Below are positions 1,249 through 3,895 of a stretch of DNA of 20,829 nucleotides, one piece after another. Source of the DNA: a virus; the IMG/VR virus record IMGVR_UViG_3300010370_000302, positions 1-20,829 of that record. One strand, given 5' to 3'. Every line of letters starts with the position of its first letter. Position 1 is the first letter of the stretch. The notes under the pieces were generated by a model. The model ran no database searches and was not told the DNA's origin. It saw nothing but the letters and a program-made list of their open reading frames with translations. The translations under genes were made by a program, and so were the position numbers.

Positions 1249-1495
1249 TTGCCGGAGGCACTCTGACAATCACAGGCGGTCAAGAGACTACCATAAGGAG
1301 ACTAATGCTGCTCTTCGGAAAGAGATTGAAAAGCTCAATGAGGACATTGAGTATTGGCACACTGAGCATGATCTTTTAGCCGATGACTTAGTAGAGTCTA
1401 AGAGGCATCACAATGCCTGGGCAACCATTGGAATAGTGCTGATGTGCTATGGATTAGCCATTACAGTACTTTTTGTTTGGGCAATTAGAATGTAG
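1211..1495 (+). CDS. Coiled-coil protein with C-terminal membrane anchor
   Basis: The 94-residue product begins MTELQTLQTQLADCRRHSDN. Residues about 1-65 are charged and heptad-like, predicting a coiled coil, and residues about 70-91 are one hydrophobic membrane segment ending in WAIRM. The topology, cytoplasmic coil with C-terminal anchor, differs from an i-spanin, which has an N-terminal anchor. No family is recognised. It overlaps the preceding small membrane protein gene in another frame, and its 3' end carries the -33 box of the promoter at 1476-1506, so the next transcription unit starts from inside this gene. Confidence 0.65.
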   Translation: MTELQTLQTQLADCRRHSDNHRRSRDYHKETNAALRKEIEKLNEDIEYWHTEHDLLADDLVESKRHHNAWATIGIVLMCYGLAITVLFVWAIRM

Positions 1496-1506
1496 TTATA
1501 TATTTG
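1476..1506 (+). promoter_or_regulatory. Bacteroidota-type promoter before the replication genes
   Basis: TTTG at 1476-1479 is separated by exactly 19 nt from TATATTTG at 1499-1506. This fits the known Bacteroidota sigma-ABfr consensus (TTTG about -33, TAnnTTTG about -7). Transcription would start near 1511-1514, at the structured leader. It is the best two-part promoter match in the window. Confidence 0.7.
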
Positions 1507-1510
1507 TGCA

Positions 1511-1520
1511 GGCGAAAGCC
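1511..1520 (+). other. GNRA-type mini-hairpin at the predicted 5' end of the leader
   Basis: GGCGAAAGCC can fold as a 3-bp stem closed by a GAAA tetraloop. It sits at or within a few bases of the transcription start predicted from the 1499-1506 -7 element. It is followed by CCCCCGATTGAGACCCGGG, which offers further GC pairing. A role in stabilising the RNA 5' end or in leader folding is inference. Confidence 0.35.
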
Positions 1521-1550
1521 CCCGATTGAGACCCGGGTAAAATAAAGGAT

Positions 1551-1646
1551 ATGAAAAATATTAAAGCCCCATTCGGTCAGTACATGTCAGCCTACTCCTT
1601 GGCTGGTCTCAACATGGAAAGCCGGATGGGGTTTTTTTTATTATGA
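1551..1646 (+). CDS. Possible 31-residue leader peptide upstream of the replication gene
   Basis: An ATG at 1551 opens a 31-codon frame (starting MKNIKAPFGQYMSAYSLAGL) whose TGA at 1644-1646 overlaps the ATG of the replication gene at 1643 (ATGA). The A-rich segment AATAAAGGAT lies just upstream, as for other genes here. The frame runs through the entire hairpin at 1563-1635, so ribosome passage would disrupt that fold. It may be a real small protein, a leader peptide used for coupling or attenuation, or a chance frame within a structured RNA. No family is recognised. Confidence 0.35.
   Translation: MKNIKAPFGQYMSAYSLAGLNMESRMGFFLL
1563..1639 (+). terminator. Long hairpin followed by T8, terminator- or attenuator-like
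   Basis: The arms AAAGCCCCATTCGG (1563-1576) and CCGGATGGGGTTTT (1622-1635) pair over 14 bp including two G-U wobbles. Inside are CATGT/ACATG (1583-1587 with 1612-1616) and CAGCC/GGCTG (1588-1592 with 1601-1605) around an 8-nt loop. Eight T residues (1632-1639) follow. The hairpin lies between the promoter at 1476-1506 and the start codon at 1643, so it would end a transcript of about 125 nt or attenuate the replication operon. Confidence 0.55.
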
Positions 1647-2290
1647 AAAGCAGAGATTCAATGGTGCTTTACAGGAGCTTTTATGATGCCATAAAGTTGC
1701 TCCCAGATGACACACAATTAGAGATTTTTCGGGCAATTTTTGAGTTCGGGCTTGATGGAATTGAGCCTGAACTATCAAACAGTGCCAAACCATTCTGGCT
1801 ACTTATTAAGCCTAATCTTCAGGCCAATAGAACCAAGTGGGAAAGCGGAAGCAAAGCAAAACGGAAGCAAAACATAAGCAAGACCGAAGCAAGACCGAAG
1901 CAGAAGGCAAGCAAGAGTGAAGCTAATGTAGATGTAGATGTAGATGTAGATGTAGATGAAAATGTAGATGTCAATGTAAATGCTAAAGGTAAGTATGACT
2001 TATCAGGCTATGGTCAGATGGCATACCTAGTCCAGAGATGGCTTGACTATAAGAAGTCAATTAAGGACAGTTATAAATCTCAGGAGTCACTTGATATGTT
2101 TGTCAAGAAACTTATTAACTACTCAAGTGGTAATGCTCAATTGGCTGAAGAAATAATTGAGACCTCTATGGCTAATCAATGGAAAGGAATCTTCGAACCT
2201 AAAAACAAAAAAAACGAGCAAACCCAAGAAGTTCCGGCCGGCCGGTCGCATCGTTTGCACGAATCATTTACATTTACCCCAAACCAATAG
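1643..2290 (+). CDS. Replication protein, DUF6291-like, probable helicase loader or replisome organizer
   Basis: The N-terminal part (about residues 5-75) has the pattern YRSFYDAIKLLPDDTQLEIF followed by a conserved-looking PFWLLIKPNLQANRTKWESG, resembling DUF6291 domains of phage replication initiators. A Lys-rich linker then runs into a VDVDVDVDVD repeat at about residues 95-112. The C-terminal part (about 118-185) resembles DnaD/replication-protein C-terminal modules, with a WLDYKK motif, repeated basic helices and NQWKGIF. Such proteins bind origin DNA and bring the helicase; this is inferred from architecture and from the adjacent dnaB gene only 2 bp downstream. The start overlaps the small leader frame and lies 3 nt after a T8 hairpin, so its expression is probably controlled by that leader. 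Confidence 0.65.
   Translation: MKSRDSMVLYRSFYDAIKLLPDDTQLEIFRAIFEFGLDGIEPELSNSAKPFWLLIKPNLQANRTKWESGSKAKRKQNISKTEARPKQKASKSEANVDVDVDVDVDENVDVNVNAKGKYDLSGYGQMAYLVQRWLDYKKSIKDSYKSQESLDMFVKKLINYSSGNAQLAEEIIETSMANQWKGIFEPKNKKNEQTQEVPAGRSHRLHESFTFTPNQ
1925..1984 (+). repeat. Hexanucleotide tandem repeat (GATGTA) inside the replication gene
   Basis: Four perfect GATGTA units at 1931-1954 are flanked by degenerate units of the same 6-bp period (AATGTA, GATGAA, GATGTC). They encode alternating Val-Asp/Asn residues. Because the unit is 6 bp, slippage would change linker length without breaking the frame. Confidence 0.85.
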
Positions 2291-2292
2291 AA

Positions 2293-3633
2293 ATGAAATT
2301 CGAAGAAGATGAACTAGAGAGGCAAGTCCTCTCAGCTATGATGCTCTCTCCGGAGGATAGGCTCACAGCTTTCCAAGTATTACCAACCATTGACTGCTTC
2401 CAAGTAGACAAGCATCGCATAATAGCACAGGCAGTGCAGGCTCAGCAAGATGCCGGCGAGCCTGTTGACCTAGAGACAACAGTAGCCACTATCAAGAAGT
2501 CTGGCTTAATAAAGGAGGCCGGAGGCATCAAGTACATTGCTCAAGTATTCTCAAGCCTCAAGTCTCCTGGTCATATAGAGGTTCACTGTCGGTACTTAGT
2601 TGAGCAGTACATCAGAGCCAAGCTCTATGGCATCAGTATGCAGCTGCTGCAGGAGTCTCAGGCTGACTCTGGTGATGTCTTTGAGATATACTCCAAGTAT
2701 CAGACTAAGCTTGATGCACTTTTTGCATCTTCCATTACCAAAAATGATGATGACTTCAAACAGCAGCTCATTGAGTCATCTAACCAATGGCTGACAAGTA
2801 AGCCAGGAGAGATAGCCGGACACCGGACAGGCATAGCTGCACTTGACAAGCTATGCGGTGGCCTGACTAACGGAGAGCTTACTGTTGTAGGTGCTAGACC
2901 AGGGCAAGGCAAGACTGCCCTAGTGGTTAGCCTTATCCGCAATCTAGCCAAGGCCGGAGTAGGCTGTGGTATGTTTAGCCTAGAGATGACAAAGCATGAG
3001 CTTGTCCAGAGGCTGGCCTCTCAGGAGTCTAATGTCTGGGCTTACAAGATTAAGCAAGGTGAGCTGAACCAGTATGACAAGAGCGCAATCCATGAGGCAG
3101 TGGGCAGAATGAAAGACTGGCCTATCAAGATAACCGATGAAGGCTATCTCAATATCAGCAAGATTAGAACTAAGGCCACGATGTGGAAGAACAAGTACGG
3201 CATTAAGGTCATATTCGTTGACTACATCGGTCTTGTTAATTCGGTCAACCCAAAGGAGACAAACAGAGTCAATATCATTGGCGAGATAAGCAGAGGTCTC
3301 AAGTTGCTTGCTAAAGAGCTACAGATTCCGGTAGTGGCACTCAGCCAGCTTAGCCGGAGAGTAGATGAGCGAGGAGATAAGATGCCTCTGATGTCTGACA
3401 TTCGTGAATCCGGTTCAGTAGAGCAGGATGCTGATGTCATCTGGATGATGCTCCGGCCTGAGTACTACTTTGAGCCATCAGCCACCACCAAAGTAGGAAG
3501 CACCGAATTACCTAATGCTGGCCTTTGCCTTATAGATCAAGTCAAGATGAGATCAGGCAGCACAGGAATTATACCTTTGCGATTCGATGCCCCATTGATG
3601 CAGTTAAAAGACTATGACCAACATTCACATTAG
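2293..3633 (+). CDS. dnaB: Replicative DNA helicase, DnaB family
   Basis: The 446-residue protein has the full DnaB layout: an N-terminal helical domain (about residues 5-110), a linker, and a RecA-like C-terminal domain. Walker A is GARPGQGKT at 200-208. Walker B is VIFVDY at 306-311. The H3-like SQLSR is at 351-355, followed by MSDIRESGSVEQDADVIW at about 367-384, a hallmark of DnaB proteins. It unwinds DNA ahead of the phage fork as a hexamer with 5'-3' polarity (family knowledge). It starts 2 bp after the putative loader gene and overlaps the following small gene by 20 bp. The length is typical of the family and no key motif is missing. Confidence 0.95.
   Translation: MKFEEDELERQVLSAMMLSPEDRLTAFQVLPTIDCFQVDKHRIIAQAVQAQQDAGEPVDLETTVATIKKSGLIKEAGGIKYIAQVFSSLKSPGHIEVHCRYLVEQYIRAKLYGISMQLLQESQADSGDVFEIYSKYQTKLDALFASSITKNDDDFKQQLIESSNQWLTSKPGEIAGHRTGIAALDKLCGGLTNGELTVVGARPGQGKTALVVSLIRNLAKAGVGCGMFSLEMTKHELVQRLASQESNVWAYKIKQGELNQYDKSAIHEAVGRMKDWPIKITDEGYLNISKIRTKATMWKNKYGIKVIFVDYIGLVNSVNPKETNRVNIIGEISRGLKLLAKELQIPVVALSQLSRRVDERGDKMPLMSDIRESGSVEQDADVIWMMLRPEYYFEPSATTKVGSTELPNAGLCLIDQVKMRSGSTGIIPLRFDAPLMQLKDYDQHSH
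3572..3579 (+). promoter_or_regulatory. Weak candidate -7 element upstream of the small gene at 3614
   Basis: TACCTTTG fits TAnnTTTG and lies 34 nt before the ATG at 3614, inside the 3' end of dnaB. No -33 box is seen, and similar TACCTTTG strings occur by chance within other coding regions (for example near 5240 and 17133), so support is weak. Confidence 0.2.
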
Positions 3634-3895
3634 CATGATACCAGAAGTTTACCAAGGAACAAGCACTTACATCAATGACATGAGATACCACTACATTAAC
3701 ACAGAGATAGGCTACCAAGACTGCATGGATTATCTGACCCGAAAGATTAGCCAGCTAAACAAAAAGATTGTTGACCATCAAGGCCATGACAACAAGAATA
3801 AGTACCTCATGCGCTGGCACAATCAGAAGGCCATCTACGAGGCAATGCTCAATTACTTATCTTTGCGAAAATTACCGTTATCACAATGCCACTAA
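3614..3895 (+). CDS. Hypothetical protein, 93 residues
   Basis: The protein is soluble, with no signal peptide or membrane segment. The central part (about residues 33-80) is helical and charged, rich in Lys, Asn and His, with a possible short coiled coil around QLNKKIVDHQ. No family is recognised. It overlaps dnaB by 20 bp and the following lysine-rich small gene by 10 bp, and it sits between the replication and packaging genes, so it is probably a small phage accessory protein. Confidence 0.6.
   Translation: MTNIHISMIPEVYQGTSTYINDMRYHYINTEIGYQDCMDYLTRKISQLNKKIVDHQGHDNKNKYLMRWHNQKAIYEAMLNYLSLRKLPLSQCH
3858..3865 (+). promoter_or_regulatory. Candidate -7 element upstream of the small basic gene and terminase genes
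   Basis: TATCTTTG matches TAnnTTTG and ends 20 nt before the ATG at 3886. No clear -33 TTTG is found at the expected distance. If active, it would start a packaging and morphogenesis transcript. Confidence 0.35.

Follow-up and report, generated by a model that had tools for sequence, protein, structure and literature searches.

A pseudoknotted leader RNA with a predicted terminator in its fold marks a joint between changing genes in uncultivated phages

A conserved leader RNA with two pseudoknots lies just ahead of the replication genes in a 20.8-kb phage record from IMG/VR (the window, which is the whole stretch of 20,829 nucleotides analysed here), and dozens of other phages carry the same fold 5′ of a wide range of genes. 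Because the fold recurs in this way and no catalogued RNA family matches it, the RNA is probably a new, exchangeable control element. On balance we favour the reading that it represents a new family of phage leader RNAs, in which the terminator is built into the fold and controls entry to the following operon. This reading draws on the fold, its covariation, its genomic position and its exchange between phages. Little is known of gene control in the phages of Bacteroidota, and a tangible RNA family whose fold is defined can now be offered; many uncultivated phages carry it where their early or replication genes begin, and it marks a joint where phage gene modules are exchanged.

The main genes of the window lie on the + strand, in the order VRR-NUC-like nuclease, methyltransferase, a 94-aa gene, the RNA element, DUF6291, DnaB, gp3-like packaging protein and terminase; the nuclease and methyltransferase assignments are both slightly below the Pfam cut-off. 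Between 1499 and 1642 are found a Bacteroidota-type promoter box, a predicted RNA about 125-130 nt long and a terminator stem of 15 bp with a U8 tract. The promoter (1476-1506, + strand) consists of TTTG at 1476-1479, a 19-nt spacer and the TAnnTTTG box TATATTTG at 1499-1506, and its type suggests a Bacteroidota host. The transcript would be expected to start at about 1511, the first nucleotide of P1, a GNRA hairpin GGC-GAAA-GCC (1511-1520, +). The long hairpin occupies 1563-1635, with U8 at 1632-1639, then ATT, then the ATG of the DUF6291 gene at 1643, and 3 nt separate the end of the U-run from that gene. The hairpin folds at -36.4 kcal/mol (z -5.27) and is stabler than 200 of 200 dinucleotide shuffles; for the whole leader, folding compared with shuffles gives a z of -3.18. 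A GC-rich stem followed by U5-U8 is the classic intrinsic terminator, and the 3′ arm of P3 with the U8 tract (1621-1639, +) has this form, the GC-rich stem being directly 5′ of the U-run, so it is predicted to act as one. The first gene past the terminator, to be reached by read-through, is the DUF6291 gene (PF19808, Pfam 1.2e-20; 1643-2290, +), and the DnaB helicase gene follows at 2293-3633.

Five nested helices and two pseudoknots were derived from an alignment of 32 distinct copies. The middle pair of P1 is GC, CG or UA in 36, 12 and 10 of 58 sequences, respectively. In the P2 hairpin (1521-1537, +), CCCG at 1521-1524 pairs with CGGG at 1534-1537, and two-sided changes are seen in three of the four pairs. 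The P2 loop provides the 5′ strand of the first pseudoknot, PK1: UUGAGAC (1526-1532, +) pairs with GUCUCAA (1606-1612, +), a bulge between P5 and P4 inside the terminator hairpin, with two-sided changes in 4/7 pairs and 93.8% of cells paired. In the second, PK2, the linker AAGGA (1545-1549, +) pairs with UCCUU (1596-1600, +) in the apical loop of the terminator hairpin; all six column pairs show two-sided changes and 91.9% of cells are paired. Both 3′ strands were followed in the covariation alignment of 58 sequences. Neither pseudoknot was part of the first-pass annotation of this DNA, which had been made from the sequence alone, and both rank among the best-supported helices of the RNA.

The terminator stem itself, P3, pairs its 5′ arm (1563-1577, +) with 1621-1635; here 99.3% of cells are paired and three pairs show two-sided changes. 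Above it, the internal loop J3/4 sets CAGUA (1578-1582, +) opposite GAAA (1617-1620), a putative sarcin-ricin-like AGUA/GAA motif. P4 (CAUG, 1583-1586, +) pairs with 1613-1616 and P5 (CAGCC, 1588-1592, +) with 1601-1605; both are paired in 100% of cells, with two-sided changes in three of four and two of five pairs.

Across 58 distinct IMG/VR relatives, 97.7% of 2538 cells are paired, a percentage that leans upward because the structure was read from the same sequences. The two-sided changes, which affect 22 of 44 pairs (309 cells), are free of that bias, but they tally sequences rather than independent events and are unweighted by phylogeny. The covariation score is 0.368 versus 0.129 in shuffles, none of 500 reaching the real value, and sliding gives no more than 0.066. 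In PK1, the GAGAC/GUCUC of the window becomes GCGAA/UUCGC, ACGAC/GUCGU or GACAC/GUGUC in relatives, and in PK2 AAGGA/UCCUU becomes GAAACA/UGUUUC, AAGAG/CUCUU or CAGAGA/UCUCUG. A covariance model (R1) scores the relatives at 117-168 bits. Conservation of the leader RNA is well beyond chance. The first-pass annotation had listed the promoter, GNRA hairpin, T8 hairpin, a small ORF and a repeat, all of which are present at the positions given here. Its view that the replication genes are preceded by a structured, promoter-driven RNA, about 125 nt long and bearing an intrinsic-terminator hairpin, is supported: conservation and covariation of the stems among relatives, on which it had in part been staked, are both found, the covariation being strong.

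Relatives were collected from IMG/VR along several routes. A search with the DUF6291 protein returned 20 loci, several with the same leader 5′ of that gene and others without it; a DNA pattern derived from the hairpin returned 41 stretches, and another 117 loci came from anchoring on the two upstream genes seen most often. The TAnn box stands 5′ of P1 in nearly all relatives and distinguishes family members from chance matches. Thus, when only the promoter and P1 were searched for, P2 and a loop-to-terminator pairing of 6-9 nt were present in 44 of 47 matches with the full TAnn box (some of these 47 being already-known members) versus 1 of 28 without it, after one known member with a shifted box, L052, had been set aside; shuffles gave 1-9%. 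The TTTG of the promoter lies 2-15 nt 3′ of the upstream stop codon, and nearly all copies have a Bacteroidota -7 box. A simple descriptor finds 211 places in 2.35 Mb of redundant loci versus two in the reversed sequence. Fourteen of 16 phage records have one match each, on the strand of the element, and most records of 32-41 kb carry one copy.

The RNA comes in more than one structural type. Type II retains P1, P2, PK1, P4, the AGUA/GAA internal loop and the terminator but is without P5 and PK2, and all 310 of its 310 cells are paired, five pairs showing two-sided changes. The AGUA/GAA sequence is also retained in most type I copies and in L223, a 69-kb phage whose RNA keeps both pseudoknots in a much-changed sequence and is followed by an HNH-endonuclease-like gene (named by eye). 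In a 68-kb phage, L225, type II and then type I stand in tandem. Such pairs, at 182 and 774 in L225, 7392 and 7757 in L264, 4311 and 4678 in L269 and 8743 and 9082 in L288, have type II first and type I second, about 340-600 nt apart, each with its own gene behind it. In a third architecture, seen in L019 (1344-1564) and L020 (3772-3992), pairing between the 5′ hairpin loop and the terminator hairpin (GGUCUCAC/GUGAGACC and GCUCUCAC/GUGAGAGC) is all that is kept, and the ATG is farther off. The promoter and P1 search brought out further types that share the loop-to-terminator pairing, and these were sorted by script and by eye. L293 (from 181, -) and L296 (from 4531, +) share the promoter and P1 and then show a longer, different hairpin system, unmatched by the script, which is possibly a further type.

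A pattern scan of GTDB genomes gave 45 matches, none with covariance-model support, and a promoter and P1 scan of two overlapping draws matched none of 395 genomes in one and a single genome of 295 in the other, the sole match lying inside a coding sequence; no copy was found in the 646 distinct Bacteroidota genomes sampled. Likewise, blastn with the type I, IV and V RNAs gave no match among isolated phages.

Which genes does the RNA accompany? It joins seven upstream to 15 downstream gene families in 26 combinations, and it is a constant joint between changing genes. The unit is swapped between phages as a cassette, and type II replaces type I at the same site in related phages, as in L010 and L011, which have related neighbours. 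In six phages of 34.5-36.6 kb a strand switch is followed by a rightward operon, and the element lies about 1.3-1.7 kb into it, immediately 5′ of the replication genes.

These features suggest a mechanism, each step of which is predicted from the sequence. Transcription from about 1511 would first yield two small hairpins and then a compact double pseudoknot, in which the terminator hairpin pairs through its bulge with the P2 loop and through its apical loop with the linker, with the terminator stem P3 as the closing helix of the folded domain. Closure of P3 over the U-run would release a short RNA of about 125-130 nt, while polymerases that read through would express the operon that starts 3 nt later (in the window, DUF6291 and then DnaB). 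Since no promoter fits between the U-run and the ATG, the operon would depend on this read-through, which may be regulated. In relatives, the U-run ends at the next ATG or a few nucleotides before it, and in 81 of 86 non-redundant copies the distance from the end of the stem to an ATG is at most 25 nt. The RNA probably gates the expression of early or replication genes, most likely via something bound to the conserved core, with termination probably set by the fold through that bound factor. There is no built-in antiterminator, because fold and terminator are compatible, and no helix outside the fold model covaries in the alignment of relatives. As the pseudoknots can coexist with the terminator stem and no other helix covaries, the RNA is not a classic RNA-only two-state attenuator; the conserved alternative antiterminator helix of such attenuators and riboswitch platforms was not found. 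Points against gating are this lack of a built-in antiterminator, the chance that read-through is invariable or that the RNA works in trans, and, in some phages, an ATG 20-35 nt downstream. A wider proposal is made tentatively, as one that stands a little below an even chance: the RNAs would form an undescribed superfamily of cis-acting elements of Bacteroidota phages, with a terminator bound up with the 5′ end in one tertiary fold, a domain that senses a factor and sets read-through into any operon behind it, and several structural types that take each other's place at one site and travel as cassettes.

In the main rival reading the product is the terminated RNA itself, about 125 nt long, which would act in trans, for example as a decoy that draws off a host or defence factor, with the downstream genes living on leaky read-through. 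A free RNA of this kind would have its own promoter, a 5′ hairpin at the expected start, a strong terminator hairpin and a compact fold, all of which are present, and the element is indifferent to the identity of the following gene. However, it would not need an ATG directly past the U-run, which is the arrangement in nearly all copies. Moreover, the pseudoknot strands vary freely while remaining mutually complementary, so their role is not that of antisense strands against a fixed target. We regard a trans-acting product as unlikely, though deserving of serious consideration.

Comparison with known systems helps to place the proposed cis-acting leader. None of the 4227 families of Rfam 15 matched at the gathering threshold in the window or in L001, L010, L016, L019 and L020; the best sub-threshold match was the PyrG leader, at 19.7 bits versus 65 (E 2.2). 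No description of this RNA was found in the literature searched, the coverage of which is incomplete. Riboswitches and protein-binding leaders with a terminator likewise have a conserved core, pseudoknots and a terminator 5′ of a gene, but here there is no Rfam match, no common downstream pathway and no alternative antiterminator pairing. In T4-like genomes, PeSLs are dense and carry a simple terminator stem-loop. According to PMC4503421, which cites Arbiol 2010 and Comeau 2014, the PeSL cassettes of T4-type phages are portable units of promoter and stem-loop between genes, associated with gene shuffling. The leader RNA is also a portable promoter and stem-loop unit common to different gene neighbours. 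It differs in occurring once or twice per genome, in having its promoter 5′ of the terminator, in being pseudoknotted and in its strong structural selection; because order and fold differ, the resemblance is one of behaviour and not of membership. The put RNA of phage HK022 is a cis-acting early-leader RNA of about 70 nt, present in two copies, which forms two stem-loops in a V shape and binds RNA polymerase; it suppresses termination and contains no terminator (PMC9378689). Both are structured RNAs right after an early phage promoter and act in cis on any following genes (for the leader RNA, probably so), whereas the leader RNA has two pseudoknots and a terminator within its fold. Type III toxin-antitoxin loci share the order of promoter, pseudoknot RNA (ToxI-like), terminator and gene (PMC5086642). 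In contrast to them, the leader RNA is without tandem repeats; neither pseudoknot RNA repeats nor a ToxN-like nuclease were found, the gene in the window being DUF6291, and there is no toxin partner, since the genes behind the RNA fall in 15 unrelated families.

Might translation of a leader peptide or a switch between folds decide termination, as the first-pass annotation had suggested? The leader ORF (31 codons, MKNIKAPFGQYMSAYSLAGLNMESRMGFFLL; 1551-1646, +) overlaps the DUF6291 ATG. Each of the 48 distinct type I bodies keeps this frame open and out of register with the main ATG, and it is open in L225 too. In the indel variants L141/L197 and L189/L221 of type I compensating changes preserve the frame, which hints weakly at translation. 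However, its substitutions number 105 non-synonymous versus 22 synonymous, and codon position 3 is the least variable. In type II, four of ten distinct sequences (L123, L133, L158, L160) were seen by eye to start an open frame with an ATG at the base of the stem; the other six have TTG or a stop there and no ATG-started frame through the hairpin, some being open from the TTG. In L223 an early in-frame stop ends the frame before the terminator. The ORF is probably not selected for its peptide, and the conserved translated peptide of a leader-peptide attenuator was not found; translation itself may still occur because the open frame is kept. The frame shows no coding signature, and the suggested coupling to translation is weak. 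The other half of that suggestion, mutually exclusive folds through AAAGCCCC, present twice in the window (1515-1522 and 1563-1570), was rejected: of 58 distinct relatives, only 31 have a repeat that can pair along its full length with the terminator arm, the complementarity being incomplete in the other 27, and hence it is not a conserved feature, and no alternative helix covaries. Taken together, a decision by either route is improbable.

Of similarly low probability is a leader for mRNA stability or translation, in which the knot would shield the 5′ end, the U-rich tract before the AUG would aid ribosome entry in hosts that seldom rely on Shine-Dalgarno pairing, and the U-run would be no terminator. 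The U-rich tract does reach the AUG in most copies, and the knot sits at the 5′ end. By contrast, the U-run directly abuts the stem in L225/L262, L264, L269 and L288 even though the AUG is about 20-35 nt away, and the stem with its U5-U8 has the terminator form noted above. A replication origin or primer RNA, for which the position 5′ of replication genes and the single copy in most 32-41 kb records might speak, is very improbable, and the origin was rejected, since the minimum of the detrended GC skew is found not at the RNA but close to the coding-strand switch, about 2-3.5 kb upstream, and some phages have two RNAs.

Other promoter-type TTTGC boxes stand 5′ of genes in the window at 115-130 (TAGGTTTGCA) and 3855-3889 (TTATCTTTGCG), without the knotted RNA. 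The DUF6291 relatives in isolated phages all have less than 50% identity. Among the DUF6291 proteins of the window (1643-2290) and of L001, L011, L012 and L016, the first ~95 residues are common and at least three unrelated C-terminal parts follow. The switch between these parts adjoins a GATGTA simple repeat encoding a VDVDVD stretch, which is likely to be a recombination point.
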